Below are positions 3,851 to 54,745 of a stretch of 64,000 nt of DNA, one piece after another. Numbering within the stretch: position 1 is the stretch's first letter; every line of letters begins with the position of its first letter. The translations under genes and the position numbers were made by a program. Source of the DNA: a virus; IMG/VR virus record IMGVR_UViG_3300037042_003932, positions 1 through 64,000 of that record; one strand, 5' to 3'. The notes under the pieces are model-generated. The model searched no databases. It saw only the letters and a program-made list of their open reading frames with translations, and was not told where the DNA came from.

Positions 3851-4180
3851 CTAATTCGTCGGAATGGCACTAGCGCCGATCATAGCAGTTTGCGTCCAGG
3901 GAGAGGTGAAAGCTTTGTACGCTTTCCCCAACATGCCTGGTTTTTTGGTAACCTGCTCTGCAGCCTGCTGACCAGCTTGTTGAACGCCCTTATTACCGAA
4001 CATACCCCGGACAGCGCCTACTCCTTTTTGGAGGAGACCCATCCCGCCTTTGGCTATTGCGCCAATGAACGGAAGGGCTTCCTTCTGAAGAGATGCTTGT
4101 TTCGAGGTAATGAGACCGAGGGCTACGAGGGTATCCTCGTAACCCTGGTCAAAGGCTTGCTTAGATAATGCCGAGTGCAT
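3851..4180 (-). CDS. Small virion-associated protein with a G-rich helix (109 aa)
   Basis: The start overlaps the sheath gene stop as TAATG, implying translational coupling. The N-terminus reads SKQAFDQGYEDTLVALGL, an instance of an Ala-aromatic-x-x-Gly-Tyr...Leu-Gly helix that recurs in several proteins of this block. A K-Q-A follows. The middle is Gly/Ala rich and hydrophobic (FIGAIAKGGMGLLQKGVGAV), perhaps membrane-active. It sits between sheath and candidate tube. Function unknown; internal virion protein is a reasonable guess. Confidence 0.55.
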   Translation of the reverse strand: MHSALSKQAFDQGYEDTLVALGLITSKQASLQKEALPFIGAIAKGGMGLLQKGVGAVRGMFGNKGVQQAGQQAAEQVTKKPGMLGKAYKAFTSPWTQTAMIGASAIPTN

Positions 4181-11293: not shown

Positions 11294-12214
11294 TCACGGG
11301 AAGATGATCTGTTGCATGGATAGAGAGTTACCCACGCCGATTCCGAGCGCCTCGTACGTCCAGAACATGATCGTGTCTGCCTTCTGCTCGATGTACAGAG
11401 TCGCATCTTGCAGGAGGTAGAAGTTTCCGAGGAAGTTGTTCGGAGCCTGCGGTGCGAAGATGAACGCGTGATTGATCGAGTAGACCTGGGGCTTGACCGT
11501 GGTCACCGTGGGGATGCCCCACAGCTTCTGGGAGGACTCGATGCCCTCGTCGAAGTGCCGCTTCGCGATGTCGTGACCTACGGAGGTCGCCGGGAGATCC
11601 AACGCGTCGAGGTACCGGGCCTTCGCCATGAGCATCTTGCCGACAGGGCGACGACGCTCGAGCATGGCACGCATGGCCAGCTTGAAGGTGCCGCTCTGGA
11701 ACGCGCCGTTCGTCTGCTGGACCGAGGGGTTCGCCGTGGTGATGGCGAGGATGGTCTCGTAGAACTTGCGGTCCTCTTCGTCAGCCATGTCCTTCACGGA
11801 GTTGTCCGACAGGATCTGCCGGATGTCGCTCGTGTAGGTCATGAGCTCGAACTTCGACTTTGTGAACCGCTGGCTCTCGATCTTGCCGAACTTCACGGCG
11901 TAGCGCTTGCCACGGAACCAGGTGCGCTGTCCGGTGCCCTGGAAGTTGACGAAGGTAGCAACCGAATCGGGCTCCTTGTCGATGATCTTGATCGGCTGGT
12001 CGCTGTCGAGCGTGCGGTCGATTTGGTCCTCAGTGATGCCCTGGGGAACAATGATCTCACGGACGGCTGCTTCTTGACGGAGCTTCTCACGAATGAAAGC
12101 ACCGCCCTCGGCCTGAGCTTCCTTGACCTGGCCGCTTTCGATTTTGCGGATGAAATTGCTGTTGAGGAACTGCGCCGTGATGTGCGGGTTCTCAACCGGG
12201 TAACTGGTGCTCAT
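11294..12214 (-). CDS. Major capsid protein (HK97-like fold)
   Basis: This 306-residue protein has the usual plan: a helical N-terminal arm (residues 1-60), then an E-loop-like region (FQGTGQRTWFRGKRYAVKF). A long P-domain-like helix follows (IRQILSDNSVKDMADEEDRKFYETIL), and the A-domain stretch ends in WTYEALGIGVGN. Gene order (protease, small proteins, decoration-like protein, this gene, connectors) supports the call. Unlike nearly all its neighbours it has no repeated K-x-A motif. It has a GGAAAT ribosome site. It assembles the icosahedral shell. Confidence 0.85.
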   Translation of the reverse strand: MSTSYPVENPHITAQFLNSNFIRKIESGQVKEAQAEGGAFIREKLRQEAAVREIIVPQGITEDQIDRTLDSDQPIKIIDKEPDSVATFVNFQGTGQRTWFRGKRYAVKFGKIESQRFTKSKFELMTYTSDIRQILSDNSVKDMADEEDRKFYETILAITTANPSVQQTNGAFQSGTFKLAMRAMLERRRPVGKMLMAKARYLDALDLPATSVGHDIAKRHFDEGIESSQKLWGIPTVTTVKPQVYSINHAFIFAPQAPNNFLGNFYLLQDATLYIEQKADTIMFWTYEALGIGVGNSLSMQQIIFP

Positions 12215-12801: not shown

Positions 12802-13140
12802 TCAGGACATTAGCCAGTTGGTAAAGCTCTCGGCAGCGGGGCTTCCACTGCTGTTGCTTGCGGTCTTAACACGAGCTGTGTTGTCCGGACCGCCGAGGCT
12901 GTCGGACAAAGCAGAGCCCGCAATTTTCTCGAGCAAGCTGGCGACTTCAGGACCAGCCGAAGCAAGCTTTTGAAGAACAGAAGCGTCAATGTTCTCACCT
13001 AAGAAAGACGACAATTTCTCGTTGAGACGAGAAGCCTCTTTCTCACGAGCCTCCTTGACGGTGTTCTCTCGCTCGCGGCTGACCTCGTCGAAGTACGACG
13101 CGGCTTTCTCGAGAACATCTGCGATGAGGTTCTTATCCAT
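12802..13140 (-). CDS. Small helical putative head/scaffold protein with K-x-A repeats
   Basis: I take the ATG at 13140 (MDKNLIADVLEKAAS), which follows AAAGGAAA, over one 30 bases upstream. The 112-residue product is helical and carries repeated K-x-A tripeptides: EKAAS, QKLAS, EKIAG, VKTAS. It sits between the protease and the capsid gene, so a scaffold or internal core role is plausible. No known family was recognised. Confidence 0.55.
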   Translation of the reverse strand: MDKNLIADVLEKAASYFDEVSRERENTVKEAREKEASRLNEKLSSFLGENIDASVLQKLASAGPEVASLLEKIAGSALSDSLGGPDNTARVKTASNSSGSPAAESFTNWLMS

Positions 13141-13150
13141 GTGCTTTCCT

Positions 13151-13324
13151 TTACCTTCCAGTCGTCTCACTGGAAAGTATACGCTTCAGTTCAGCTAGTC
13201 CGCGTGCTGCCACTAAAATTTTTGCGATTTTTTCTGTCTTCGCTTTTTGGGTGGCTTCGTCCTGGTTGCGGATACTCGCTGCAACTTTTCGGAGCTCATC
13301 AGCAAACTTTGTTGGATCTTGCAC
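13151..13324 (-). CDS. Small helical protein, 57 aa, GTG start
   Basis: The reading frame opens at GTG 13324, preceded by GGGAGGTGA seven to eight bases upstream, and closes with TAA at 13151. The product (MQDPTKFADELRKVAASIRN...) is charged and helical and contains K-V-A and E-K-I-A, the motif seen in its neighbours. It fits exactly between the flanking genes, with only a 3-base gap upstream. It is probably a real head-region gene; function unknown. Confidence 0.6.
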   Translation of the reverse strand: MQDPTKFADELRKVAASIRNQDEATQKAKTEKIAKILVAARGLAELKRILSSETTGR

Positions 13325-13327
13325 GAC

Positions 13328-13552
13328 TCACCTCCCAAACCGGCTTGTGAAATCAAGCACGTCGTTGAGAGTTACCCGGGATGAATCCTCATTGCGAATA
13401 TCCGCAGCAAGTTTGCGAAGGAGCTTTCCGACCTCGGTCATCGTGCGTTCTTCCGCCGCAACTTTCTCAGTGACCGATTGTGCTAGATCAGCGACAACCT
13501 GTCTCTGGATGTTCTCGACAAGAACGTCAACGTTTGGAAGACTCTGTCGCAT
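13328..13552 (-). CDS. Small helical protein (74 aa) with K-x-A motifs
   Basis: The product is charged and alpha-helical, containing TEKVAAEER and RKLAADIRNED. Its C-terminal half resembles the next downstream gene (RKVAASIRNQDEA), suggesting local duplication. The start overlaps the end of the upstream 54-aa gene by 26 bases. Probably part of the set of small head-core or internal proteins between protease and capsid. Confidence 0.55.
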   Translation of the reverse strand: MRQSLPNVDVLVENIQRQVVADLAQSVTEKVAAEERTMTEVGKLLRKLAADIRNEDSSRVTLNDVLDFTSRFGR

Positions 13553-13691
13553 CTTTTTTGTCCTTCTTCATCGATTCTTCGCTGCAACAAGGGCCTTCTT
13601 CCTTCTTTACGCCGTAAGCGCTACTCAAGGAATCAGCCGCTTGCTTGAACAGCATTGCGTATTCAGTCCTGACGTTAGAGTTGAAGAACAT
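13527..13691 (-). CDS. Small protein (54 aa) with strong ribosome site
   Basis: ATG at 13691 follows AAGGAGGTGTGACA, one of the best ribosome sites in the block. The frame encodes MFFNSNVRTEYAMLFKQAAD, then a Lys/Glu-rich tail containing a CC pair, and stops at 13527 inside the next gene. It carries K-Q-A in an amphipathic helix like its neighbours. Function unknown; head-region protein by position. Confidence 0.55.
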   Translation of the reverse strand: MFFNSNVRTEYAMLFKQAADSLSSAYGVKKEEGPCCSEESMKKDKKDATESSKR

Positions 13692-13710
13692 TGTCACACC
13701 TCCTTCAACG

Positions 13711-14295
13711 TTAACGGCTCATCTGGGACAGAATGACATCGACTTCCTGCGCACCCTTGTAGAACTCTTGGGCAGCTTTCTCACGCACGTCTTCCAGCGC
13801 AGCATTCTGCCCGGCGTTGTATTGCTCGGCAGCGACCTTCTCCATAGCCTGGGCGTAACCGGCTTCCATCGCGACTTTTGTCATAGTGTCGTTGTAGCCT
13901 TTCTCGGCTGCTTGCTGAAGCATGGATTGCTCTTCTGCCGCGAGCTTCTCCTGCGAGGGGACTTCCGGCTGCACCGATGCGATCTTGGACGTCTGGCGAG
14001 CCCAAGTCTCAGCAGCCGCGTCGGCGAAAGCAGCTCCCATCTGGCGCATGTGAATGACCTCGGCGGTCTTCTCGTCTTCAGCGAGTCTTTGCGCCTCTTT
14101 GATGAGGGCTTCGACTGGGTCAGACGTGTTGGCTGACGCGGTCTTCTCTTGCGCGACAACCTGCTTTAGCGAAGTGATTAGGGCCTCTTGCGCTGCTGCG
14201 GTAGCGGTTTTCGTGGACGCTTGCGAGGTAGTATCGCTGGCGGTCTTCTCGGTGGATGTCCCGCTAATCTGACTCATCAGTGTCTCGTAGTTCAT
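13711..14295 (-). CDS. Putative internal head/scaffold protein rich in K-x-A repeats
   Basis: ATG 14295 (MNYETLMSQIS) is preceded by GTGAGGA and chosen over 14322. The 194-residue helical protein has about ten K-x-A units (EKTAS, EKLAAE, TKVAM, EKVAAE, REKAAQ). It also has two GY-type turns (EKGYNDTMTKVAMEAGYAQAM), another recurring feature of this block. It lies just downstream of the prohead protease, the usual place for scaffolding proteins that the protease degrades. That role is inferred. Confidence 0.6.
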   Translation of the reverse strand: MNYETLMSQISGTSTEKTASDTTSQASTKTATAAAQEALITSLKQVVAQEKTASANTSDPVEALIKEAQRLAEDEKTAEVIHMRQMGAAFADAAAETWARQTSKIASVQPEVPSQEKLAAEEQSMLQQAAEKGYNDTMTKVAMEAGYAQAMEKVAAEQYNAGQNAALEDVREKAAQEFYKGAQEVDVILSQMSR

Positions 14296-14360
14296 GATTT
14301 CCTCACATTGGTTAGGTGCCAACCCGAATACTAGGGCGGCGACTGGTTCCTATCAAGGGA

Positions 14361-16412
14361 TTAACCCTCGACGATTAGTTCACCGATACGTTCAGCAATT
14401 TTCTCGATGTCCAGCTTTGGTAACAACACCGTGTCTGTTGGTTGGGGTAAGAGATCAGCCAAAATAGAAGACAATTTTGGAGTGCCAGAAGCCATCCGAT
14501 TCAACCATTTGGTCGCAGCGTCAGTTCCTTGAGCTATGTACTTGGCACCTGGTTCAAAGATTTGTTTGTTTGCTGCTCTACCTGCCAAGCTGCCACCCAA
14601 AGCATTAAGCCCCGTAACCCCAATGGCAGTACTCGCCAATGGATGCTCTTGAGTGAAAGCACCGGCTTGGTCAAGAAGACGCCTACCTAATGGAAGACCA
14701 GGATGCCCTACAGGTTCTCCTCGGGCTAACCGTGACTTGTAGTCACTGCTGAGAAGAGTCATCAGCCCCAAAGTTCCAAACAGAGGAAGAGCCAAAGAAG
14801 ACATCTTTGACATCTCAGTTACCGTGGAGATTGGAACTCCTTGGTCAGTCATGTAGTGAGTACCCATATCCGGGAGATGCGTCGCACCAGCAGTAGCGAG
14901 TGTTCCTCCGACCAAAGGCTTTAACGCACCTAGACCACGGCGACTCAAACCAGAACCCAAAACCTTGTACGTGCCACCCAACAACGCAGCGCCGCCGACT
15001 GTCTTGTACACGTTGCGCTTTGCCACTTCGTCGTGTGACCTAACTGCAGCACCCCGCGTGGTTTGGTACCGAGTACCTGTCGCGGGGTCAGTAACAGTCA
15101 GTGGTGTTGAAAACTCACCTTCGTCTCTGAACTTCTCCGGGATTATGTTTCGTTTGAGGTAGTCGCCCATACCCGAAGTCTTCTCAAGGTAAGGAGAGAG
15201 TGCCTCTAGTATCCGAGGGTCTACAGCATCTCTATGAAAGTTGAGTGCGTCTGACCCCTCAAACGAATCCAGGATTTGCGGGTGCTCTGCGATAAGGTCC
15301 ATAATCGGACCCTGCAATCCCACGGACCTATCGACCCAACTCTTCTCTGGATGATGCTTTGGATATGACTTGAAGAAGATGAGCTTCATGAGCTCTGGGG
15401 TCTTCAGCATCATTCCGCCAGAGAAAGCAGATGACAAAGTCTTCTGCAGTGGGTAGTGCGAAAGGTCATGCAGGGTCTCGTCGGGGATTACTGGAACGTT
15501 TCCGCCCATGTCTAGAACTTGGTTACGCATTCGCTGAATGTTACAAAGTTCTGTGGGGTCTACGTTCTCAGTCTTAGCGTCTAACGGAATCCCTTGAACG
15601 ACCTTGTCGATGACTGCGATCTTGTGAGCGGCAAGCTTACGCTCGTCCATAGCTTCAAGATATTCACCCGCCTTTACGCCGGAAAGGATTTCATACGGCG
15701 TAGCGTTAGCGACTTTTTTCATCATGTATGCCGTTGGGTCCGCAGGTCGGATAACCCAAGAGATGTCAAAGAACTTGGGGCTAGGGTTGAGTGCTGCTAC
15801 CTTAACACCATTGATTACGTCCCGCATTTGGAAGCGGAGGTGGTCACAGTACTGAGCTCTAGTAGGCGCTCTGTTTCCACAAATCGTGCAAACGTCCCAA
15901 GCTACCTTGGTCCCCATACTGACCGGGGGGAACTCACCGTTCTTGATTCTCTCAGCGAGGTCAGGGGCCTTCGCGTTGTCGAGATCAATCAGGAGCTCGA
16001 CTCGGTGCATCGTGTCGTTCCAGAATGACTTGACGACTTTTCCGACTCGCTTCTCTGGGTCTTTGTTGACGTGATGTCTGTAGTTGTTTCCGTACAGCTC
16101 AAACGTATGATGCCAATTCGATAACGTTTCGGCTTGGCTGATCCACGGAGGACTCGCCATTGGCTTATATGGGGCATTGGGGAATCCATCTCCGTTACGG
16201 TTCTCAGCGTAATGCTCCCAGTCGCTCACAGCCAAAACATAAACAAAGCTGTGACCTGGAATAGGCTGGATCGTCTTGAAGTACTCGCTCCCTACACTGG
16301 CGTGCTTCGTGATGTTTTCGTAGCAAGCCCTGTTATTGGCCCACAGCATCACCGGCTGAACCGTAGCTTCTCCAGTAGGAAAGTACTCGTCGAGATGGAT
16401 TATTTTTTCCAT
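14361..16412 (-). CDS. Prohead (head maturation) protease with long C-terminal region
   Basis: ATG 16412 (MEKIIHLDEYF) follows GAGGACTTA and is preferred over 16541. Residues about 60-220 match the maturation-protease pattern: AENRNGDGFP near 69, a His-containing segment (YRHHVNKDPEKRVGKV, near 111), then FPPVSMGTKV with the candidate nucleophile Ser near 165. A Cys cluster follows (CTICGNRAPTRAQYC), and then NPSPKFFDIS and ADPTAYM. Serine proteases of this class cleave scaffold and capsid arms during prohead maturation. At 683 residues it is far longer than typical (about 200). The C-terminal 400 are helical and Gly/Ala-rich with hydrophobic stretches, perhaps a fused internal scaffold. Confidence 0.75.
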   Translation of the reverse strand: MEKIIHLDEYFPTGEATVQPVMLWANNRACYENITKHASVGSEYFKTIQPIPGHSFVYVLAVSDWEHYAENRNGDGFPNAPYKPMASPPWISQAETLSNWHHTFELYGNNYRHHVNKDPEKRVGKVVKSFWNDTMHRVELLIDLDNAKAPDLAERIKNGEFPPVSMGTKVAWDVCTICGNRAPTRAQYCDHLRFQMRDVINGVKVAALNPSPKFFDISWVIRPADPTAYMMKKVANATPYEILSGVKAGEYLEAMDERKLAAHKIAVIDKVVQGIPLDAKTENVDPTELCNIQRMRNQVLDMGGNVPVIPDETLHDLSHYPLQKTLSSAFSGGMMLKTPELMKLIFFKSYPKHHPEKSWVDRSVGLQGPIMDLIAEHPQILDSFEGSDALNFHRDAVDPRILEALSPYLEKTSGMGDYLKRNIIPEKFRDEGEFSTPLTVTDPATGTRYQTTRGAAVRSHDEVAKRNVYKTVGGAALLGGTYKVLGSGLSRRGLGALKPLVGGTLATAGATHLPDMGTHYMTDQGVPISTVTEMSKMSSLALPLFGTLGLMTLLSSDYKSRLARGEPVGHPGLPLGRRLLDQAGAFTQEHPLASTAIGVTGLNALGGSLAGRAANKQIFEPGAKYIAQGTDAATKWLNRMASGTPKLSSILADLLPQPTDTVLLPKLDIEKIAERIGELIVEG

Positions 16413-16419
16413 TAAGTCC

Positions 16420-16830
16420 TCAGAGAACCCCGCGAAGGATCTCCATAAAAACTTCACGCCCGTAGGTACGCATCGACGCCAGCTTGAGACGGGCAGTATC
16501 CGACACGGTGTCGTTGTGCAGCGCTTGAGTGAGCGCGTCATCCACAGTCAAAGCTGTAGCGATTTTGAGCTGCTCGACGTTACTCAGAGGCTCTTGGCGT
16601 TTGAACGCAGCCATCTTCGTAACGAACGAAGCAACCCCAACAGCCCCCGTATGCCCATGAATGCGAGCTTCCGTACGGATAGCATCCGTAACAACGTGAG
16701 CGATTTTGGGGTTCTCGTATTCTACCGCGATGCACTGCTCTTCCGAGGCTGTCTTGACCGCAACCTCTTCATAGAGGCCATGGCTCTTAGCCGCGTTCGA
16801 GATCTCGTGCGTAAAGATTTCAAGGTTCAT
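16420..16830 (-). CDS. Small helical putative virion protein (136 aa)
   Basis: Helical, with multiple K-x-A units (VKTASEEQ, TKMAAFKRQ, LKIATAL, LKLASM). It ends seven bases before the protease start and starts just after the 71-aa gene stop, so the genes are one operon. No known domain. By context it is a head-core or internal protein cleaved or packaged during assembly, which remains a guess. Confidence 0.5.
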   Translation of the reverse strand: MNLEIFTHEISNAAKSHGLYEEVAVKTASEEQCIAVEYENPKIAHVVTDAIRTEARIHGHTGAVGVASFVTKMAAFKRQEPLSNVEQLKIATALTVDDALTQALHNDTVSDTARLKLASMRTYGREVFMEILRGVL

Positions 16831-16831
16831 A

Positions 16832-17047
16832 TTAACCTCGCAGCATCTTGAGGGCCGTTAAGCCGTCCATGATCACAGAGTGACGCATACGCCTGGCTGC
16901 AATCTTCTCGCCCATGTAGCGAGAGACGGAAGCGAAGCTGAAATCCGTCAGACCAGTGCGCTCTTCCGCGAGCTTGTGCACTTGGTGGTTTAGGTACGCC
17001 AGCTTCACGTTCTCGGGGACAACAGCATCGAGTTCTTCATACGTCAT
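16832..17047 (-). CDS. Small helical protein (71 aa)
   Basis: I choose ATG 17047 (MTYEELDAVVPENV), preceded by AGAGGTGAT. The product contains VKLAYLNHQVHKLAEERTG and EKIAARR, so three K-x-A units in 71 residues. It is separated by one base from the next gene. Function unknown; same protein set as its neighbours. Confidence 0.5.
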   Translation of the reverse strand: MTYEELDAVVPENVKLAYLNHQVHKLAEERTGLTDFSFASVSRYMGEKIAARRMRHSVIMDGLTALKMLRG

Positions 17048-17058
17048 GATATCACCTC

Positions 17059-17715
17059 TTAAAACCACGGGCGCGTGGCGTTACGTGCTTCCATGAAAGC
17101 CTTCTCAGCTTCAGCGAGGTGCTTCATGGTCATGTAGTTAATCGTACCTCCGGTTTGAGAAGCCTCACGCAGGAATGAAAGAACTACATTCGGGTCTTCC
17201 GAAACATGCGGAGCCGTATGGACCATCGTGGTGTACGCCTTCTCGAGGATACCGGGATTCTCCATGTCGAACGTGTGGAGCATGGGGTCGCTCTGCACGA
17301 TACGTTGAACCAGCATCTTCTGCTGTTGATTCAGCGTAGTCGGACCCAAGCGCACCGTGTTACCAACGCCGGTAACGAGAGCTCGGATGATATCGATCCC
17401 AGCTTGACCCACAGCCTTACCCAGACCTTCGCCAACGCCCTTGGTCAAACTACCTGCGAAAGTCGGAACCTCGTAGAGTGCGCTCTTCTCAAAAGCAACC
17501 TTCTTCTCAAGGAAGGCTTTGCGCTCTGCAACAGCATCAAGCTCCGCGTACACGTACTTACCACCAGGGGTACCTGTGTAGTTTTTCATGATTTCTCCCT
17601 CTAGCTCATCGCCGGGTTTAAGTCCTGCAGCAAGAGACGCACCGGTTCCTGCGATCCCCATAGAGGCTATGGGGTGCTTAAACGGCATGTTGACTACTTT
17701 TTTCAGTAAGCCCAT
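17059..17715 (-). CDS. Putative virion protein with Gly-rich hydrophobic segments (218 aa)
   Basis: The N-terminus has a basic start and a small-residue stretch (IASMGIAGTGASLAAGL). A charged helix with EKKVAFEKSALYE follows, then a Gly/Ala-rich segment (KGVGEGLGKAVGQAGIDIIR) that could insert in membranes. No family recognised. It is one of several block members combining membrane-active-looking segments with K-x-A units, as expected of internal or ejected virion proteins. Confidence 0.5.
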   Translation of the reverse strand: MGLLKKVVNMPFKHPIASMGIAGTGASLAAGLKPGDELEGEIMKNYTGTPGGKYVYAELDAVAERKAFLEKKVAFEKSALYEVPTFAGSLTKGVGEGLGKAVGQAGIDIIRALVTGVGNTVRLGPTTLNQQQKMLVQRIVQSDPMLHTFDMENPGILEKAYTTMVHTAPHVSEDPNVVLSFLREASQTGGTINYMTMKHLAEAEKAFMEARNATRPWF

Positions 17716-17717
17716 GG

Positions 17718-18674
17718 TTACCGCAGTCCTGCGATTTTCTCGTTCAGCCAGTTGAGAGACGCGGTATATCCCTCTCGTTTGATTCTCGCTGCCGAAGCTT
17801 GCTTAACAAAGACAAGAATCTCGCGTGTTTCCACCTTACTCCCAAGCGAACTGACGCTATGCTCGGACGCGGTCGCCAGCTTCTCGGATACGACATCTCC
17901 AAGAGCTCCTCCGATCAAGACATCGATAGCCTTAACTTCCGGGATGGCCGACACACCAAGGTCTGCAACGACCTCGGTGTAGAATGCATGCTTATCGAAG
18001 TTCGGACGCCCAAAGACAACCCGAACAGACTGGGCTGCTTTCTCAAGAGCGATACCCCATTCGTGCATGAGGCGGCGTGACTCCTCGTCAATGGCTTCTT
18101 GTGCTCGCTTGACGTTGAACCGCGCCATCGCCTTCTTGTCCAAGAGCGCCTTTTCAGACTCTTCTCCCGGCTCGTCTACTTTCTTTCCGAACACGAACGG
18201 AGGCTTGTCCTCGGTGTCTTCTTTATCGTCTTCCTTGTCGTCTTTCTTCTTCTCGTCGTCGTCTTCCTCGTCGTCATCATCTTCTTCGTCGTCTTCTTCC
18301 GACTCGTCTTCGGCTGTCTTAACGGACATCGGACCGTAGTAGTCCATTGCCCTGTCATACGAAGATACAGACGCGAACTTCTGTTGAGCTACGGCTGCTT
18401 GCTTGGTTTCCGCGTAAATATTGCTGATGACCAAATCAGGGTCACCGACCTCGAATTCGATCATACGGTCTTCCGACCCTGCACGCTTTGTGAACAACTC
18501 TTGGAAAGCAACCACGTTAGCAAGCCGAACAAGCGTTTGAATCCCTTCAGGGTTCAGGTTGTTCTCGGTCGCCACTTTCGTAGCGAGGTCATTGATTCGC
18601 ATCTGACCTTCGCTAGCGGCGAAGTCTTTGCCAATTTGAGTCGCTGCATTATCGAATTCAGCTCTTGTCCACAT
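17718..18674 (-). CDS. Putative virion/scaffold protein with long acidic tract
   Basis: 318 residues. The N-terminal helical part has K-V-A, K-Q-A and K-F-A units. Residues about 120-160 are almost purely Asp/Glu with Lys, a strikingly acidic run. The C-terminus is helical with VKQASAARIKREGYTASLNW and EKIAG. Acidic tracts in phage head proteins often belong to scaffolds or DNA mimics. Lying upstream of the protease it could be assembly core. No domain was recognised. Confidence 0.5.
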   Translation of the reverse strand: MWTRAEFDNAATQIGKDFAASEGQMRINDLATKVATENNLNPEGIQTLVRLANVVAFQELFTKRAGSEDRMIEFEVGDPDLVISNIYAETKQAAVAQQKFASVSSYDRAMDYYGPMSVKTAEDESEEDDEEDDDDEEDDDEKKKDDKEDDKEDTEDKPPFVFGKKVDEPGEESEKALLDKKAMARFNVKRAQEAIDEESRRLMHEWGIALEKAAQSVRVVFGRPNFDKHAFYTEVVADLGVSAIPEVKAIDVLIGGALGDVVSEKLATASEHSVSSLGSKVETREILVFVKQASAARIKREGYTASLNWLNEKIAGLR

Positions 18675-18683
18675 GCGTGCCTC

Positions 18684-19397
18684 TCAATGCATGATGTTTT
18701 CAGGGAGTATCTTCAACTCTTCAGGTGTGCGCGTCAACTGCTGTTGCTTAATCGCGATTACTGCGTCGTCGATGTTCTCATCGATCTCTTCCATACGCAG
18801 CTTCTCATGAGCAGCAAGCAGCTTCGTTACGCTATCAAACCAGCGAAGAGCCTGACGAGACGCATCTGAAGTTAAAGAGTTACCACGAGCGACCATACCG
18901 ATAGTGTACGCGGTGTTTATCATCTTTCTAGAAACACCCCGAACGTCAATGCTGAGCTCTTCATGCCCAAGAAGAAATCGATCTTGTAGAATAACCGGGC
19001 CACCGGATAGGCCGGTGTCTATCAGCCATTTGCCTTCTTCTTGAGCAACGTTCCTTTGGTACTCTCGAGCGTACATAATGTGATCGAGCTTATTCTTTAC
19101 TTCGCTTCGTTCAAAGAATAACTTCTCAAACACTTCCAAGATCTCATACGGAATCTCGAGACTCTTAGAGATCTCTTCTAAAGTAGCCCTACTAAGAATG
19201 AACGCCATGATGCAGTCACGATGATAGTCACTGTCACCAAGGTCTAAAGCAGCACCGACGATGTCGTCGTTCTTTTGCCCCATAGCGACTTCGTATACGC
19301 CGTAAAGCCAAACGTCGTTAAGAAGACAAGACGGGTCTTGTCCATTCAAGACATGCTTTAGGCGTTTCCATCGCCGGTCTGGGACACACTGTCTCAC
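18684..19397 (-). CDS. Hypothetical protein with HTH-like segment
   Basis: GTG 19397 overlaps the stop of the 881-aa gene as GTGA, so translation is coupled. The 237-residue protein contains ATLEEISKSLEIPYEILEVF, which reads like the helix-turn-helix of a sigma region 4 or phage terminase small subunit. A helical middle and C-terminus follow (LTRTPEELKILPENIMH). A small terminase-like or DNA-binding role is possible, but the evidence is a single motif. It lacks the K-x-A repeats of its neighbours. Confidence 0.45.
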   Translation of the reverse strand: MRQCVPDRRWKRLKHVLNGQDPSCLLNDVWLYGVYEVAMGQKNDDIVGAALDLGDSDYHRDCIMAFILSRATLEEISKSLEIPYEILEVFEKLFFERSEVKNKLDHIMYAREYQRNVAQEEGKWLIDTGLSGGPVILQDRFLLGHEELSIDVRGVSRKMINTAYTIGMVARGNSLTSDASRQALRWFDSVTKLLAAHEKLRMEEIDENIDDAVIAIKQQQLTRTPEELKILPENIMH

Positions 19398-22039
19398 TGC
19401 TGGTTCATCATTCCTTGTTGCGACATCTGGTTCGGACTCACAGCGTTACGGTTGATCTTGATGACGAGGTCACCGAGACCCTTAAACACCGTGCGAAGAC
19501 GCTCTTCAAGTGTCGTGTACTCCAGGTCACCAATCATCTGCTTGACCTCGGCCTCTTGCATCCAAAGGGTCAGCAAGATACGCCCGAGGTTGTCCACAGC
19601 CTTTTCGAGGTTGGGTACGTACGTCGAGATGATGTCGTGGAGAACTGGAGACGCCGCCATCATCGACATCGTAGCGAGGTCAAAGACACCTGCGTTGCCG
19701 AGGTCGCCAGCGGACTCAAGCATGTTGGGATTGATTTGGTCCGCAACAGCCTGTGGGTTCATGTTTCCCTCGGGCATGACAGGCTGCGGCGGGGGCTCGG
19801 GCTCTGGCTCGGGCTCTGGCGCAAGCATCCGAGCAGCAGTAGCCGGGGAAGCTTCAGCTCCAGCCGGGATGACGCCGCCAGTCACTTGCGTGATTTGGTT
19901 CGCCCGGTTCTGTATCTGCTGAAGGAGCTGAACCAGACGGTTGTTCTGGTCGGACTCCTGCTGCAGGGCTTGCTGTTGCTGCTGCATCTGATCTTGCAGC
20001 TGCTGCATACGGACCTGGTTCTCCTGAGTCAGCTTGTCCACAGCCTCGGCAATCGCGAGGTCCGTAGGAGACATCGGAGATGGCGCGGGCTGCTGCGGCA
20101 TCATACCGCCCATCATCGAGGGGTCCATTCCCTGCTGCATCGGGTCTCCCATCGGAGAACCGCCGCCACCCTCGGGAGACATCTGGGGAGCAGGACCCTG
20201 CGCCGGTCCCTGACCTTGCATCGGGCCTTCCATCCCAGGCTGAGCGACCTTCATCAAAATCTCGTTGATGGACGCCAGCTTAGAAGTGGGAAGGACGTAC
20301 ATAAACGGGAACCGCGTACGTTCTACTTCCACAAGAATCCCAGCAGCGTCCGAAACCGAGATGTTGTAGTCCGTCGCGATCTTCTCGACCGCCTTGGGGT
20401 AGTGGAGAGCGCATGGGTGATTCCCGACCCAGTACTCATCAACACCAGCCTTTTTGACTTCGATGGGGTCAGCCTTCGCGTCTTGCAACTTCGCGTCGAG
20501 CCAATGCGTGACCATCTTGGGATCGTCGGTGATGTTGCTCAGGCTATGGTTGCGCAGGTCGTACTTGTCCTTCTCATGGACATTCGTCTGAATGGCAACC
20601 CACTTGGCATCTTTGGGAATGAGGTACGTGTCGTTGGCCGCGTTCGTGATGGACTCACGTTTGGTGTTGTCGTCGATGATGTACTTAGTGCCATCCGAGT
20701 AATCTGAAATGATCTTCCTTACGCCTTTGGTATCCACGATGGAATGAATCCAAAAAGGCTTCGTGGCCTGCGGCTGTTTACCCGGACCCGCACAGAGGAA
20801 GAAACCGTAGTCATGGACAGATGGGGATGACCCACGCGCATTCCCGTGGATAATCGTCTTGATCCACTTGTAGTTGTTCAGCTCAGGGTCATCATCTTGG
20901 ATGAGCTCGCCCATAACGTGTGTATTGCACCACACCTTCTTACCGTCTTTGTTGACGATAAGATACTCAGTGGCGTTACGGCGAGGACTTGAACCGTATT
21001 CGCTGTAGTAGTCACTACTATAAACTAAACCGCCGCTCGAACCCTTGGGCTTAGGAATGATGTAGTAGATGTCCGGGGGAGCATCCATAAAGTAGAGGCG
21101 ATAGAACCCTGCGGTGTGACCAGGCTCAGTGAGCTTTAGGTCATGCTCAATCTTGAGAGCTACCTTATCAATGCCTCTACGTGTGTCTTGGACTGCAATG
21201 CCGTTTCGCAGAATCCCTTGGTACGCCTGTGCCGACTTAACGCCAAAAGCTTCTTTGAGTTCTGCAGCCGTTGCGGTCTTAGTGAACACCCTCACAACGC
21301 CAGGAGCATTGAGCGCAGCCGTCTTCGTTCGAGCCACATCTTGCGCAGCGACACGGGCATTACCGCGCTTGAACGCGTTTATAATGGACGTAGACCCGTG
21401 GAAGTGTGCCAGCTTAGCGAGGAGAACAGGGTGTTTCTCAAACGCTAGCTTTACGCCGTCAATAACGGACTTCGGCGCAGCGTCTCCGATGAACTCCAAA
21501 AACCGAGGATGGACTTCGTAGTTATTGGACTCCGCTTCCTTGAACATGGCCTTTGCGTGGAAGTCAAAGCTCATATCCGAAGCTAGACCCACACGACCCG
21601 AAGAAGTGAACGGGGGCATAACCACGTTTCGGATATCCACGTCCCGAGGAACGCCCTGTGGGATATCAGAAGGCTGGCCCATCTCTTCGAGAGACATCTT
21701 CGATACTTCCTCCAACCACTCTTTATTCATGGGAAGGAAGATATTCAGGTCTTTGAAGTAGAACACATCCAGCGGCTTCAGCTGGCTATCGCTCATAACG
21801 ACTGGAATGTAGATTGGCTTATTATCTTGCAGGAAGATAAAGGCACCAACTCCGCGTCCCTTTGTGGCGTTAGTCTCCAGAAGTTTGAAAGTTACAACCT
21901 GTTGCGCCATATCCGGGAATTTGGCGAACATCACGTTGTAAGCCATGCTCGCAAACTTTTGCTTAAAGATCTCTTCCGCTTGTTCAGCGGAAGGAAGCTG
22001 ACCATACGCTTGAACATCCGGGGACATAGGTGTTGGCAT
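19394..22039 (-). CDS. Large virion-associated protein with Q-rich coiled coil (881 aa)
   Basis: Residues 1-550 are a mixed alpha/beta region with many K-x-A units (VKLAFEKHPVLLAKLAHF, TKTAAL, FTKTAT, DKVALKI). Residues about 600-720 are Met/Pro/Gly/Gln-rich with a Gln coiled coil (QLQDQMQQQQQALQQ). A Pro-Glu repeat (EPEPEPEPEPPPQP) follows, and then a helical C-terminus. The layout suggests a large internal or core structural protein. A putative TATAATTCAA promoter precedes it. No known family was recognised. Confidence 0.55.
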   Translation of the reverse strand: MPTPMSPDVQAYGQLPSAEQAEEIFKQKFASMAYNVMFAKFPDMAQQVVTFKLLETNATKGRGVGAFIFLQDNKPIYIPVVMSDSQLKPLDVFYFKDLNIFLPMNKEWLEEVSKMSLEEMGQPSDIPQGVPRDVDIRNVVMPPFTSSGRVGLASDMSFDFHAKAMFKEAESNNYEVHPRFLEFIGDAAPKSVIDGVKLAFEKHPVLLAKLAHFHGSTSIINAFKRGNARVAAQDVARTKTAALNAPGVVRVFTKTATAAELKEAFGVKSAQAYQGILRNGIAVQDTRRGIDKVALKIEHDLKLTEPGHTAGFYRLYFMDAPPDIYYIIPKPKGSSGGLVYSSDYYSEYGSSPRRNATEYLIVNKDGKKVWCNTHVMGELIQDDDPELNNYKWIKTIIHGNARGSSPSVHDYGFFLCAGPGKQPQATKPFWIHSIVDTKGVRKIISDYSDGTKYIIDDNTKRESITNAANDTYLIPKDAKWVAIQTNVHEKDKYDLRNHSLSNITDDPKMVTHWLDAKLQDAKADPIEVKKAGVDEYWVGNHPCALHYPKAVEKIATDYNISVSDAAGILVEVERTRFPFMYVLPTSKLASINEILMKVAQPGMEGPMQGQGPAQGPAPQMSPEGGGGSPMGDPMQQGMDPSMMGGMMPQQPAPSPMSPTDLAIAEAVDKLTQENQVRMQQLQDQMQQQQQALQQESDQNNRLVQLLQQIQNRANQITQVTGGVIPAGAEASPATAARMLAPEPEPEPEPPPQPVMPEGNMNPQAVADQINPNMLESAGDLGNAGVFDLATMSMMAASPVLHDIISTYVPNLEKAVDNLGRILLTLWMQEAEVKQMIGDLEYTTLEERLRTVFKGLGDLVIKINRNAVSPNQMSQQGMMNQQ

Positions 22040-22109
22040 TGTTTGAACCTGTCCTGTTAACGACGACCAAGTTCTCCGAACACGAAAACACGTGCTCTCT
22101 GGTTTCGTC

Positions 22110-22119
22110 TTGAATTATA
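22110..22119 (-). promoter_or_regulatory. Putative -10-like promoter element (TATAATTCAA), second copy
   Basis: Identical in ten bases to the element at 1158-1167 and likewise in a roughly 110-base gap, about 70 bases upstream of the ATG at 22039. No TTGACA at standard spacing. The rest of the gap has no obvious hairpin. Two identical copies in two of the few real gaps of the block make promoter function plausible. Confidence 0.45.
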
Positions 22120-22151
22120 TGGCAAGAATGCGTTGAGGGAAGAACAGAATG

Positions 22152-23069
22152 TCAGTGAACGGACTTGAGAGCATTCATGAGGATGCTTGTGGCCACATCA
22201 ACGACCTCGGCCTGGCTCGCCTGCTTCTGCTGTTGGGCATGCAGGTTGATCAGAATCTGTCGGCCTTCCTCGGTTGAGAGGAGTTGCTCGGCAGTCTTCT
22301 TCACATCAGCCTGGAGCTCGTTATGAACCGCAGGTTGAGGAGCGGCTGGGTGCTTCTTCAGCGGGACCGGCTGGGTCGTGGTCTGGGTCGTGCTGCCCTG
22401 GGAGACAACCGTTCCGCCGAGGTTCGCGTTGGTGGTCAGGTCCATACGGCCACCGCCCTGCGGGAGAACGCCGTCTTTCGACAGCTTCTGCAGGAACGAG
22501 GAGATCTTCACGTCAGCAAGGGTCGTGGGAGCTGGGGAGTCTTGCGTACCCGGCTGGTCCGGACGGACAGTCTGAGACCCGACTTCGCCGCCGCTGGTGT
22601 CCATGGAAGACGAACCCTTCGGACCCGTGACAGCCGAAGATGGATTCTTCTCGGCGTCAGTCTCGCCCTCGATGAAGACCTGCTCATGCGTCGCGGGACC
22701 CGAACCCGGATTCGTGGTGCCAGCCTCGAGAGCAGCCTTGTAGATCAGTCGCTCAGCGGTGGCATAAGCCAGCTTCACGATGTCCAGGTTCTGATCGGCG
22801 GCGACCTTGTTCAGGTTCTCGTCCATCGCACTGCCGGTCTTGGCAGCAATCGCCTGAGCGACTTCGACGAGCTTCTGAAGGATCGGAGCGACTTCGTTGG
22901 CACTCATTCCGGTTTCGTCGGTGACTTCTGGAGCTTCCTCTTCCGGAACCTCGTCAGCCACAGCGTCAGCGACCTCATTGGCCACCTTAACCGACGAATA
23001 GTGCACCAGGCCATTGCGCATCAGGCCAAAATTCAGACCGCGAACGTGTGATCTTTTGAAAAGTCCCAT
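22152..23069 (-). CDS. Putative virion protein, low-complexity middle (305 aa)
   Basis: ATG 23069 (MGLFKRSHVRGLNFG) follows AAAAGGAG and is preferred over the upstream ATG at 23207, which would overlap the neighbour. Helical ends carry K-x-A units (VKVANEVADAV, NKVAADQNLDIVKLAYA, VKKTAEQLL). The middle is Thr/Ser/Gly/Pro-rich and probably disordered. Structural or internal virion protein by context; no family recognised. Confidence 0.5.
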   Translation of the reverse strand: MGLFKRSHVRGLNFGLMRNGLVHYSSVKVANEVADAVADEVPEEEAPEVTDETGMSANEVAPILQKLVEVAQAIAAKTGSAMDENLNKVAADQNLDIVKLAYATAERLIYKAALEAGTTNPGSGPATHEQVFIEGETDAEKNPSSAVTGPKGSSSMDTSGGEVGSQTVRPDQPGTQDSPAPTTLADVKISSFLQKLSKDGVLPQGGGRMDLTTNANLGGTVVSQGSTTQTTTQPVPLKKHPAAPQPAVHNELQADVKKTAEQLLSTEEGRQILINLHAQQQKQASQAEVVDVATSILMNALKSVH

Positions 23070-23091
23070 GATTTTGACTCCTTTTAGTCCG

Positions 23092-23403
23092 TTACTCGCT
23101 AAGCGCGCCGTAGATGTCCTCGTTCGGGTCACCTGCGTACGCCTCGGGCGATACTTCTTGGTTGTTGGCGTTAGGGTCTTGGGGCATGTTTTCGTAGTCG
23201 CCCTCAACCAAACTATTCACGTCTGGCTGAGCGGGTGCACCAGGGGTAGGACCCATCAGTTGAACTCCGGTGGGGTTACCTTCGGCTTCGTCTGCCAAGT
23301 CATTACCCATGGCTTCAGCTGTTGGTTCGTCATAACCGGCAGTCTTTAGAGCTGTCGTTGCCCCGTAGGCATATGCCTGTTTTAGTTGGGAGACAGTCAA
23401 CAT
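23092..23403 (-). CDS. Small putative virion protein (103 aa)
   Basis: ATG 23403 (MLTVSQLKQAYAYG) has AGGAGGAAA upstream. The N-terminal helix LKQAYAYGATTALKTAGYD matches the recurring pattern of K-x-A, aromatic-x-x-G and Leu...Gly. The C-terminal two thirds are acidic and Pro/Asn-rich, likely disordered. Function unknown. Confidence 0.5.
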   Translation of the reverse strand: MLTVSQLKQAYAYGATTALKTAGYDEPTAEAMGNDLADEAEGNPTGVQLMGPTPGAPAQPDVNSLVEGDYENMPQDPNANNQEVSPEAYAGDPNEDIYGALSE

Positions 23404-23450
23404 AGAAACATTTCCTCCTGGCGTACCTTTCACAAGTGTACGACTAAATT

Positions 23451-24035
23451 CTAAAATTGTCGTCCCTGATATTGAGGTTGCGGTTGTCCCTGTGGGTTAC
23501 GTTGTTGGAACCGTTGATACGGATTCTGCGGGTCCGATTGACCAAAAGTTCCCGTAGCTTTCTGAGCCACGTTTACAGCTCCACGCCCTATACGATCCAA
23601 CACGGGATACGCTACCATACTTCCAACCATACCTAATGGCCGGTATAGAGCGTTAGTCCCTAGCGTACCTAATGCTAAGCCACCAATGCTCTGCGCTTTG
23701 TCTGGAGCATCACTCTTCATAGTCTGGTAACCCATATAGGCTGGCAGACCGTAGAGCAACGCTTTATCCAACATCTTAGGAGCTTTCATTCCTTGATGCA
23801 TCATACTGTTGCTCTTGAACGCGTTACCAGACATAATCTCTTTTCCAAAGTTTATAGGCTCCCCTATCATAAACTTCCTAAGAGTTGTGTGCCATGGCTG
23901 CTTGGCACCGGCCTCAACAAGACTCTTACCTGCCTGTCCTGCTCTCGCCACAGCACCTGGAGGAATAGCCAAAGCCATCTTGGATAGCCCTAGAGATTGA
24001 TAGACTTCGTTCCAGCCTTCTTCGAACGGCGTCAT
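23451..24035 (-). CDS. Putative internal virion protein with Gly-rich segments (194 aa)
   Basis: Starts MTPFEEGWNEVYQSLGLSKMALA, the clearest instance of the Phe-x-x-Gly-aromatic...Leu-Gly-Leu-x-K-x-A helix of this block. The middle contains hydrophobic small-residue stretches (IGGLALGTLGTNALY). The tail is Gln/Pro/Arg-rich. It is one base from the beta-prime gene stop and probably co-transcribed with the RNA polymerase genes. Function unknown. Confidence 0.5.
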   Translation of the reverse strand: MTPFEEGWNEVYQSLGLSKMALAIPPGAVARAGQAGKSLVEAGAKQPWHTTLRKFMIGEPINFGKEIMSGNAFKSNSMMHQGMKAPKMLDKALLYGLPAYMGYQTMKSDAPDKAQSIGGLALGTLGTNALYRPLGMVGSMVAYPVLDRIGRGAVNVAQKATGTFGQSDPQNPYQRFQQRNPQGQPQPQYQGRQF

Positions 24036-25842: not shown

Positions 25843-27293
25843 TAGCCGTTACCGCCAGGAATGATCGGAGTTGTACCGCTCACGGCACCAACCGAGAACG
25901 GGTTACCCCAATCGGTAGGTCTCTCAAGATGCTTGTCTACGGGATTACCTGCGACAGAGGTTACAGGGTTCACGTTGGTGTAATCCGAATCCATTGCGTT
26001 GAGCGCTTTTGCCAACTGCCCGGCACCAGTGTTCTCGTCTGAAGCAGGCATCGGTCTTCCGGATTCAGAAGTGGATGCGTCACCTGATTGACCTTGTCCT
26101 GCGGATTCGGCTGCACTCTCGGCACCTAGTTTCCGCAACATGTCGAAGTAACCTCTCCAATAAAATGACGACGCTACTTTTTCAGAGATGTTTTTCATTA
26201 ACCACTTGTCCTTGTTGGTTCGAACCAGAGCATACCGCTCTTTTTTAGCGTCGCCTACTGTTCGTTCGAATTTTAGACTATCCGGTTTCGAGGACAAAAT
26301 AGAGATTGGTTCTTTGTGTTTGATCTCTACCGAGCCACGTCCGTACCCCGTGTGTATTTGGGCAGGCCCGCTTTCGCCAAAGGTAAGAGCATAATTTGAC
26401 GTGTGCGTAGGCGTCTGGATAGCGAGTAGAGGCTTCCCTCCTACTTCAGGGAACTTAGCTTTAGGTATTGCCCAAGAGTGGGCATGGTCCGTGTCAGGAT
26501 CGATCAAACGTAAATCCCAATGAGGACCCGCCTTAACAGCGTCATGCTGTTGTACTGACATCGTCCAGTCAGCATCCCCTAAAGTAGGTAGGTCGTGTGT
26601 CTTCTTGTCCCGTGGAATCCCAGGGGCGAACTCAGACGACATCAGACGCTTAGGGTTAGCGTCCATCGCTGGGATGAAATCATTGAGCTCGTGTCGTTTG
26701 AGAGGTACTGATGCTAATCCAGTTTCTGTATTCAGTGAATACAACCCCCGAATGGAGCCTTTGTCATGCAACGTAGATGTATCGAGTCTGACTTGCGAAG
26801 ACTTAGGAGGAGCCATGACCAACTTAGGGTTAGTCACTGTGAGCGGCTTCAACTTTTCTTCAAGAAGCTTTCGAGCTACATCCGTAGGCATGCTGTCGTT
26901 GAGGTGCCCCCGGATATAGAACCCCCGACCCCCTGAGAACGCTAGCGACGTTCGGGCTACTTCGGGAATCCCTTTCAACAGCGTATCGATTTGTTTTACG
27001 ATTGGCTTGAGTTCGTGTGTGGTTACTTCTTTGCCTGGATCGACATCCACCCACACAACGTTTGTTTCTTTCCCTATCGTCGGATGGAACTCAACAGCCC
27101 GCTGGTCCACCAGCCTCTTGAGCTGCGCTTGGTTGTTGAGCTTGATAGGGTTGCCGTCGAGATTCCTACGGTAAAAAGGTTTCCCCTCTTCGTGCTGCAC
27201 GAGCGTTAGGGCTCCGTCTCCATAAAAATTACGGAGTAAAGAGTCCTGGATATGCTGCGTGGTGTAGTAGTCTACGACGTCTTGTTTGTTCAC
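25842..27293 (-). CDS. Primase-polymerase (AEP) fused to LigD-type 3'-phosphoesterase
   Basis: 483 residues, GTG start overlapping the previous stop as GTGA. Residues about 40-220 are an archaeo-eukaryotic primase domain: VVWVDVDPG with metal-binding D83/D85, SGGRGFYIRG at 120-129 (the usual motif-II His is Tyr), and RLDTSTLHDKGSIRGLYSL with D171. This last resembles the RLIRLPGSLHGKTGL region of PriS. Residues about 245-370 match the LigD phosphoesterase domain: H250, H258, D260, R262 (HDAVKAGPHWDLRL), SWAIPK, and H297/Y301. All its catalytic positions are present. The tail carries EKVASSFYWRGYFDML, the virion-block helix motif. Family knowledge: LigD-type enzymes add and trim 3' ends. There is no ligase domain and no Ku in the window. 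Confidence 0.8.
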   Translation of the reverse strand: MNKQDVVDYYTTQHIQDSLLRNFYGDGALTLVQHEEGKPFYRRNLDGNPIKLNNQAQLKRLVDQRAVEFHPTIGKETNVVWVDVDPGKEVTTHELKPIVKQIDTLLKGIPEVARTSLAFSGGRGFYIRGHLNDSMPTDVARKLLEEKLKPLTVTNPKLVMAPPKSSQVRLDTSTLHDKGSIRGLYSLNTETGLASVPLKRHELNDFIPAMDANPKRLMSSEFAPGIPRDKKTHDLPTLGDADWTMSVQQHDAVKAGPHWDLRLIDPDTDHAHSWAIPKAKFPEVGGKPLLAIQTPTHTSNYALTFGESGPAQIHTGYGRGSVEIKHKEPISILSSKPDSLKFERTVGDAKKERYALVRTNKDKWLMKNISEKVASSFYWRGYFDMLRKLGAESAAESAGQGQSGDASTSESGRPMPASDENTGAGQLAKALNAMDSDYTNVNPVTSVAGNPVDKHLERPTDWGNPFSVGAVSGTTPIIPGGNG

Positions 27294-53050: not shown

Positions 53051-53744
53051 GACCTAGACGAGCTAACTCCGCATGGAGATGGCTCTTGTGTTCTGCAACG
53101 TAGAGGTAACAAGCAGCAAGACGGGCTAGTTGCACACCGACCGCATTCTCTGCGAACTCGGTGTGCGCTAGTCTGTTCTTGGGAGTATGACTCCAAGCTT
53201 GCTTTACCTCTTTTTTTAGTCCAGTGACGTATTCTTCCGAAGTGAGTTGTTTCTCCAAACAGTCTTCCGCAAACAGAAGTTCACTTGGCGGAAGCACAAA
53301 GCCTTCGCGACGGAGACAAACAGCCACGTAAAGCTGCACGTCACCATCAAAATCTGGGATGGTATCTTTGTCAGGGTCAAACTGGCGAATGACAGCGGCT
53401 TCGCAAATAGCCCAAGCCATATGCGCGGAGTGATTCTCCTGCAGCGTACCAACGCTGAAAGGTTGACCGTTCAACGCCTGCACCGTGTGCTGGAATGAGA
53501 TGTTGTCCCAGTAGAAAGACGGGTGTTCCGTGAGCGCAATAGCCGCCTGGATCTTGTCGCGGTCCACTTCACTCAAAGGGTAGCTGTCTCGCTCTAGGGT
53601 TAACCATAGAGCTTCAGGTTCCCACTTGAGGACTTCGTCCCCGTACAAAGAACGCAGCGACAGTAAGAGAGCAATAGCCGAGCTAGAAGACGCGGCTTTA
53701 AGCGTAGCTTTTGCTTCAGGTTCTAGTGCCTTGTTTTTCATCAA
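53040..53744 (-). CDS. Hypothetical protein (234 aa)
   Basis: Start at 53744 overlaps the upstream stop by four bases, so the pair is coupled. The product is mainly helical, with DFDGDVQLYVAVCLRREGF and an Ala-rich N-terminus (ATLKAASSSSAIALLLSL). It reads oppositely to both neighbours and its stop overlaps the MoxR stop. No motif recognised. It is paired with the K-x-A-rich gene upstream, so virion association is possible. Confidence 0.5.
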   Translation of the reverse strand: MMKNKALEPEAKATLKAASSSSAIALLLSLRSLYGDEVLKWEPEALWLTLERDSYPLSEVDRDKIQAAIALTEHPSFYWDNISFQHTVQALNGQPFSVGTLQENHSAHMAWAICEAAVIRQFDPDKDTIPDFDGDVQLYVAVCLRREGFVLPPSELLFAEDCLEKQLTSEEYVTGLKKEVKQAWSHTPKNRLAHTEFAENAVGVQLARLAACYLYVAEHKSHLHAELARLGLKP

Positions 53745-54745
53745 TGCGAGTATGCCACAAGATTCGTAGCGAGGGAAGACTTGAGGTCATTCGGCAGAGT
53801 CTCAATAATCTGCTCAAGAGCAGTAGGGTCAACTTGGCCACCGGGGGCTATCTCAGACGCGAAGTCAGGGCCAATCGCGTCAGACCAAAAAGTGACAGGC
53901 AGAGACGACAACACGTTCTTGTCAAACATCTTTCCAGCGATGTTGATGCTCTGTGCCGCCAGCTTATCCGTGTTCCAAACAGTCTGGATAGGATCAAGAA
54001 TCTTCTTACCGTACAGATTCACAATGCCTGCCTGCTTGTCCAGATCATGGAGCGCTGCGGCCAACTTTACCTGGTAACCTTTGTCCGCAATATAGTCAGG
54101 AGTGTTGGTAAAAGCTTGTGCCAACTTCTCGTACGAAGCCGCGACAGGCGAATTCACCTTCAGGGCTGCTTCCTTGCGAGCGCCGAGCCAGTCACAAAGA
54201 AGCTTGGTGCTTGTGAGCGTAATGCCTGCGAACTTCTTGGTAGAAGGAGCCAACGGAACTTCGTAACGCTCAGCTACCTTAACCAGGTTGAGCATGATTT
54301 CAGAGCGTTCGGTCGGAGAAAACTCCGCGTACCGTTGTCCCACAATCTGCTCGGCAAGTTTGACGTCACCAGCGGAAGCAACGCGAAAACGGCGTTGGCT
54401 ATCCAACAGCCAGTACTCCTCACCTGCTTCTTTTTCCAACAAGCTCTCGGAGTTGAACGATGCGGTGTCTACCCCGTAGACCTCGGCAGCGCGATCCAAA
54501 TTTAACCTCACGTCCAACGGAAGGACAGAGGCAGTCTTGCTGTAAGCAAGAGAAAGAACAGCATGCTCCCGATTATGTAGGGGGAACATCCGGCGCTCTG
54601 GCCATGCAAAAGCTGACATCGGCAGGTTCGAGAACTCCTCCGAGTCGAGCTCAGCAGTCTTCGCCATCTCTTTGATGGCTGGGAACTTCTCGGAAAGGAC
54701 TCGCAGCATTGCGAAACCGGCATCAGTGGTTTGGTCGATGATCAT
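53741..54745 (-). CDS. Putative virion-associated protein with K-x-A repeats (334 aa)
   Basis: Helical throughout, with many K-x-A units (MAKTAE, YSKTAS, VKLAEQ, VKVAER, YEKLAQ, VKLAAALHDLDKQAG). These match the style of the head block at 12.8-23 kb. That suggests a virion protein displaced into an early-gene neighbourhood. It is coupled to the 234-aa gene and diverges from the VWA operon. No family recognised. Confidence 0.5.
   Translation of the reverse strand: MIIDQTTDAGFAMLRVLSEKFPAIKEMAKTAELDSEEFSNLPMSAFAWPERRMFPLHNREHAVLSLAYSKTASVLPLDVRLNLDRAAEVYGVDTASFNSESLLEKEAGEEYWLLDSQRRFRVASAGDVKLAEQIVGQRYAEFSPTERSEIMLNLVKVAERYEVPLAPSTKKFAGITLTSTKLLCDWLGARKEAALKVNSPVAASYEKLAQAFTNTPDYIADKGYQVKLAAALHDLDKQAGIVNLYGKKILDPIQTVWNTDKLAAQSINIAGKMFDKNVLSSLPVTFWSDAIGPDFASEIAPGGQVDPTALEQIIETLPNDLKSSLATNLVAYSH

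Follow-up and report, generated by a model that had tools for sequence, protein, structure and literature searches.

The head region and its genes

The window, the whole stretch of DNA that was analysed, comprises 64,000 nucleotides of an IMG/VR virus record of 143,878 bases. Its head module contains, from right to left, a portal-like gene, two genes for RNA-polymerase-like proteins, a LigD-type primase-polymerase gene, several genes of unknown function, a prohead protease gene, further unknowns and the gene of the major capsid protein (Table 1). The order portal-like gene, protease and capsid on one strand is the same in the Salmonella phage Arash. A profile search for a portal protein found none. 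The capsid protein gave a weak profile match to gp27 of phage G (6wkk), and its AlphaFold model was too poor for use (mean pLDDT 41).

Table 1. Coordinates of head-region features, with K-x-A counts given as observed vs expected
Position	Strand	Feature	Details
3851..4180	-	small protein, three N-terminal K-x-A, predicted propeptide	F-x-x-G-Y...LGL...K-x-A
11294..12214	-	major capsid protein, 306 aa	42% identical to Arash major capsid protein
12116..12124	-	K-x-A (KEA, capsid residues 31-33)	predicted removal of 33-residue N-terminal propeptide
12802..13140	-	small putative core protein	6 vs 1.1
13328..13552	-	small head-region protein	2 vs 0.2; orthologs 4.4x
13711..14322	-	putative main scaffold/core protein	11 vs 2.5
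14361..16412	-	prohead (head-maturation) protease, 683 aa, from internal ATG	profile, fold, alignments
15708..15716	-	K-x-A (KVA, protease residues 233-235)	predicted C-terminal self-cleavage site
16299..16307	-	K-x-A (KHA, protease residues 36-38)	predicted N-terminal self-cleavage site
16420..16830	-	head-region protein	5 vs 0.9; orthologs 4.1x
16832..17068	-	head-region protein	3 vs 0.4; orthologs 4.4x
17718..18674	-	head-region protein with acidic stretch	12 vs 3.0; orthologs 3.8x
19394..22039	-	large head-region protein, Arash gp218 homolog	14 vs 5.0
22152..23069	-	head-region protein	6 vs 2.1, two clusters
23092..23433	-	small head-region protein	2 K-x-A near N-terminus
23451..24035	-	protein, one N-terminal K-x-A (KMA 19-21), predicted propeptide	F-x-x-G-W...LGL-S-K-x-A
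32295-34034	same as protease and capsid	portal-like	assigned by position and length only
53741..54745	-	predicted head substrate, gene apart from block	11 vs 2.7
L038:16121-17128, L039:15163-16164, L040:15075-16076, L041:16172-17173		actinophage capsids	KLA near residue 45

We assigned 14361-16412 to the prohead serine proteases (herpes-assemblin-like fold) by profile, predicted fold, a His/Ser pair and gene position. The protein matches the PHROG profile of head maturation proteases (phrog_18299, E 2e-8) and, in tblastn, the "prohead protease" of Rhodococcus phage E3 (E 2e-8). Its predicted fold gave 144 matches in BFVD at E<=1e-3, many of them named prohead protease. Matches to solved structures were weak: T4 gp21 and herpes proteases ranked near the top and were not significant (TM 0.46 on target for gp21, 5jbl), and a sequence search of the PDB with the protease profile returned spurious coiled-coil matches alone. 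H114 and S165, the latter in an SM motif, are near-invariant (62 of 64 relatives) and are candidates for the active-site histidine and serine. A Cys-x2-Cys...Cys-x-His insert (C175, C178, C189, H191) adjoins this serine in all 64 relatives and is visible also in gp19 of phage G; residues 175-191 are a possible zinc site.

The two RNA-polymerase-like proteins are encoded at 27290-31648, which carries a DYDGD motif, and at 24037-25842. Between them lies 25842-27293, a LigD-type primase-polymerase domain fused to a LigD 3'-phosphoesterase-like domain, whose Arash counterpart, called a DNA helicase, is an abundant virion protein (PMC10585845). The RNA polymerase of Arash and its corresponding head proteins, including gp218, have likewise been detected in virions (PMC10585845). 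We did not use the coverage percentages of that study, which do not resemble ordinary sequence coverage (e.g. 100% from two unique peptides; PMC10585845).

Excess of K-x-A in head-region proteins

A first-pass annotation of the sequence had noted that [EV]K[TVILAF]A recurs in proteins encoded at 12802-23403 and 53741-54745. We curated 13 genes from these regions and compared them with composition-preserving shuffles. The recurrence was borne out, with 27 occurrences against 1.5 expected and no more than 6 in any of 1000 shuffles. The underlying motif is broader, namely K-x-A with nearly any residue at x: 81 sites were counted against 24.3 +/- 4.6 expected, and the maximum in 3000 shuffles was 41. 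When all residue pairs at gaps of 1-4 were ranked with no prior choice, K-x-A came first (p about 1e-19) and EK second (p 1e-5). Only a gap of 2 between K and A is enriched, gaps 1 and 3-8 being near expectation, as are A-x-K and R-x-A, while K-x-E is depleted. KxxxE (i,i+4) is likewise raised (35 vs 17). Across about 78 kb of the rest of the record K-x-A is at background level with 98 vs 90. The codons used are mixed, with 68 different 9-mers among 83 sites. Selection therefore acts on the protein, and we rejected a reading as a DNA repeat.

About ten genes are enriched, and not the whole of the non-capsid virion block: 17059 (2 vs 1.7) and 18684 (no K-x-A) lie within 12802-23403 and show no enrichment. 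The strongest genes are 12802, 13711, 16420, 17718, 19394 and 53741, followed by the weaker 16832, 13328, 23092 and 22152. In the product of 13711-14322, 11 of 13 lysines sit in K-x-A, and 25 orthologs retain a 4.3x excess. For the 12802 gene the listed ORF runs to 13170, with the ATG at 13140 the likelier start. When the 23092 gene is read from the ATG at 23403, both of its only two lysines are in K-x-A. The 19394-22039 product has no K-x-A beyond residue 599. No match was found when the 53741-54745 protein was searched against phage records.

Other genes behaved differently. Sheath (4180-6912) and tube (3081-3836) contain no K-x-A, in agreement with the first-pass annotation, and their orthologs reach 0.36-0.38 of expectation; this depletion may merely reflect their folds. 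The absence claimed for the capsid did not hold, since that protein carries KEA at residues 31-33 and a second K-x-A, KLA, at 177-179. The recurrence reported for 25842-27293 was not found: this primase-polymerase, which is not a tail protein, has a single K-x-A. The word "tail" used for it may have meant the C-terminal tail, where EKVA lies. The RNA-polymerase-like proteins are not enriched either (1.0-1.2x in orthologs). By number alone the protease is borderline (7 vs 3.6, p 0.058). The 3851-4180 protein, also listed at first as rich in the motif, has three sites, a number that is not exceptional (p 0.16), all within the first 35 residues.

Conservation and position of the sites

Relatives include Arash, the Vibrio phages D69, D148 and D181 and many IMG/VR contigs. 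In alignments of six site-rich proteins (12802, 13328, 13711, 16420, 16832 and 17718) conservation of the motif K and A is 0.47-0.84, compared with 0.10-0.38 for other lysines, 0.17-0.47 for other alanines and 0.23-0.42 for the middle residue. Alignment with related phages, which the first-pass annotation had proposed as a check, showed K and A conserved and the residue between them not. For 19394 the contrast between motif and other residues is weak. Even at identities as low as 25%, orthologs of the six proteins retain an excess of 3.8-4.7x. We also gathered 64 loci via the protease; several are near-duplicates, so that 64 is not a count of independent cases. In 55 of them K-x-A outranks every other residue pair. 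Over the 64 loci its median excess is 2.28x (range 1.62-2.85), and other K-A gaps have a median of 0.95.

From 1052 aligned sites in enriched proteins of relatives we derived a logo: L/F/M/I at P5, E/V/T at P4, K at P3, V/I/T/L/E at P2, A at P1 and S (3.5x), A or E at P1'. The preference is restricted to P5-P1', with little past P2'. As judged from these aligned sequences, the logo has the shape of a protease subsite logo.

In the capsid protein, KEA 31-33 is kept in all homologs of a first set, including those of Arash (42% identity) and D69 (38%) and a relative at 33%. This set had been gathered in part with a pattern containing KEA, and we therefore rechecked the site in the loci gathered via the protease, which have some contigs in common with the first set. 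Among 40 capsid homologs there, 36 read KEA, two KQA and one KLA; the fortieth is an ORF with a wrong start, from a contig whose capsid had already been found to read KEA. Judged from these alignments, K and A stay fixed at the capsid site while the middle residue varies.

Two sites in the protease are similarly conserved. KHA 36-38 is invariant in an alignment of 19 sequences, and in a wider set K is kept in 49 and A in 54 of 62. KVA 233-235 lies in the linker that follows the catalytic domain, and all 64 relatives have it. The structure model is mostly confident at residues 40-227 and falls below a pLDDT of 50 at 1-38 and 228-249, which places both sites within, or at the edge of, low-confidence stretches.

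Where a protein has few sites, one of them tends to lie close to the N-terminus. In 422 proteins of relatives that show no general K-x-A excess, capsids excluded, K-x-A peaks at residues 16-30 (68 vs 31.4; maximum 46 when shuffled in 30-residue blocks). A typical example in relatives reads M...LGL-x-K-x-A-F, followed by a glycine-rich start. The proteins 3851-4180 and 23451-24035 have F-x-x-G-[YW]...LGL...K-x-A in common. To judge from their position, such single sites look like propeptides and could target proteins to the core too.

A second element accompanies some sites. F-x-x-G-[YFW] is frequently found no more than 14 residues from K-x-A, with 25 upstream cases against 7.2 expected (maximum 17 in shuffles that preserve K-x-A). 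Examples are 3851-4180, 23451-24035 and 13711-14322, and in related loci L003:17997-18314, L004:19269-19562 and L030:4273-5154. Its N-terminal form is at times F-[DE]-x-G-[YW]...LGL...K-x-A. It is possibly a capsid-targeting signal.

A candidate signal of the head-maturation protease

From the enrichment, selective conservation, clade association and positions of the sites described above we infer that cutting occurs, which bond is cut and what becomes of each protein and of the scaffold pieces. K-x-A is very probably the recognition and cleavage signal of the protease 14361-16412, an option that the first-pass annotation had listed and that the sequence evidence strongly supports. The bond cut is probably the one after A (A|P1'). 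This reading rests on the confinement of the logo to P5-P1' with K and A conserved and x not, on K-x-A leading in most protease-collected loci, on the conserved sites that flank the catalytic domain of the protease in low-confidence linkers, and on the tendency of few-site proteins to have one at residues 16-30. It has become more coherent because the capsid site is now included. A positive control gives further support: on T4 gp67, gp68, gp21 and gp22 the same unbiased pair statistic ranked IxE first and LxE second, which is the known gp21 signal. For five SPN3US substrates with few sites the known AxE did not rank first, which shows that the statistic does not detect every such signal.

According to the mechanism we propose, substrates would bind in extended form as [LFMI]-[EVT]-K-[VITLE]-A|[S/A/E], the S3 pocket taking K and the S1 pocket A. 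Within the prohead, the protease would release itself by cutting at KHA (36-38) and KVA (233-235), the capsid protein would lose 33 N-terminal residues at KEA, and packaged proteins with a single N-terminal site would lose short propeptides. The many-site scaffold or core proteins (13711, 12802, 17718, 16420, 16832 and 53741) would be digested to small pieces, making room for the entry of DNA. Sites in probably folded regions (capsid 177-179, protease 204-206) may stay uncut.

Alternatively, K-x-A could be a docking or packaging tag that recruits proteins to the core by binding scaffold, protease or portal and is left uncut, or has the cut falling at residues close by. The motif is confined to head-region proteins, and single N-terminal copies often follow the common F-x-x-G-[YW]...LG context (25 vs 7.2), as a tag might. 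A pure tag, however, needs no 11-14 copies per protein, would not require sites flanking the protease's own catalytic domain and leaves unexplained a preference limited to P5-P1' with S or A after the alanine. We regard it as improbable in this pure form; a tag role and a cleavage role are compatible, and the sites at residues 16-30 may serve core targeting in addition.

A structural preference, for coiled-coil heptads or for helix-capping in lysine- and alanine-rich helical proteins, is very improbable. Many of the proteins do seem helical, with much A, E and K in their composition, and KxxxE is raised, but none of the K-to-A gaps 1, 3, 4, 5, 6, 7 and 8 is enriched, residues i and i+2 lie on different helix faces, and lysines and alanines in the motif are far better conserved than those elsewhere in these proteins. 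The heptad version, another suggestion of the first-pass annotation, was rejected, since only i,i+2 is enriched and motif spacings of 7, 14, 21 and 28 are not favored. The i,i+2 spacing is that expected for P3 and P1 of an extended substrate. Least probable of all is that another protease, of the host or from a different phage gene, cuts the sites: the link to 14361-16412 consists of the clade-wide association and the sites within the protease itself, but all loci gathered via this protease alone show a 1.6-2.85x excess, K-x-A flanks its catalytic domain and it is encoded inside the cluster of presumed substrates.

The cleavage reading has parallels in known systems. As in T4, a phage protease is encoded beside portal and capsid genes, the signal spans three residues with P3 and P1 fixed, and copies are many in the scaffold (gp22: 16 [LI]xE vs 5.8) and few in the capsid (gp23, E65). 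T4 gp21 differs in its signal, L/I-x-E and not K-x-A, and the present protease is distinguished by its Cys3-His insert and long C-terminal part. T4 internal proteins carry capsid-targeting propeptides. The short K-x-A propeptides predicted here resemble them, and may likewise have a targeting role. SPN3US gp245 (A-x-E) and the phiKZ protease (S/A/G-x-E) also come from large myophages with a packaged RNA polymerase. In these phages several propeptides of different length are known, with multiple sites in long ones (PMC5694885, PMC10052503), and the proteases are documented to cut themselves on the C-terminal side of the catalytic domain (PMC5694885). SPN3US gp245 favors serine at P1' (PMC10052503), as does the K-x-A logo. 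The head proteases of T4, phiKZ, 201phi2-1 and SPN3US all cut after glutamate (PMC5694885). The x-x-E specificity of T4, phiKZ and SPN3US does not extend to the present proteins, in which K-x-E is depleted and K-x-A enriched; instead of the glutamate P1 of SPN3US and phiKZ, K would occupy P3 and A, presumably, P1. Of the large-myovirus head proteases whose sites are mapped in the literature consulted for comparison, none has alanine at P1. A literature search for K-x-A as a prohead-protease signal, with bioRxiv preprints and most subscription papers outside its scope, found nothing. K-x-A would thus be a novel specificity in a system whose kind is known, and not a new kind of system.

Among the closest known systems are Arash and the Vibrio phages D69, D148 and D181, which have a homologous capsid (38-42%) with KEA, a homologous protease (33-41%) and homologous K-x-A-rich neighbors. 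In Arash the protease gene is annotated merely as a structural protein, and the virion proteome paper mentions neither protease nor cleavage (PMC10585845). More distantly, gp19 of phage G is a protease of similar predicted structure (E 1e-15) with 8 K-x-A vs 2.5 and EKVAS after the catalytic domain. The distantly related phage G capsid gp27 differs in having no K-x-A, and its solved chain (6wkk) is numbered from residue 1. This is as expected if no site means no cut, and suggests that gp27 is uncut. In the virion block of Myrna, an actinophage with a related protease, K-x-A is not top-ranked. The capsids of the actinophages Myrna, E3, Phrappuccino and Tonenili have KLA near residue 45, and their proteases have about 2x K-x-A. 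The signal may therefore reach beyond the Arash-like clade.

A wider proposal is more tentative, and we hold it to be somewhat doubtful: a large and mostly uncultivated clade of myophages that carry an RNA polymerase (Arash-like, and perhaps extending to phage G and some actinophages) may use a protease with K at P3 and A at P1, together with K-x-A in the N-terminal F-x-x-G-[YW]...LG...K-x-A context as a removable capsid-targeting tag. If this were true, sequence could reveal which proteins are packaged in all phages of this type.

Since the Salmonella phage Arash is in culture and mass spectra of its virions already exist, the prediction is directly testable. The conserved K-x-A code would offer a rule, based on sequence alone, for recognizing head substrates, the capsid trim point and the scaffold in many uncultivated phages. 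It would provide a role for a dozen functionally unassigned proteins; it also predicts an enzyme of distinct specificity and makes K-x-A a candidate for the signal by which proteins are loaded into phage heads.
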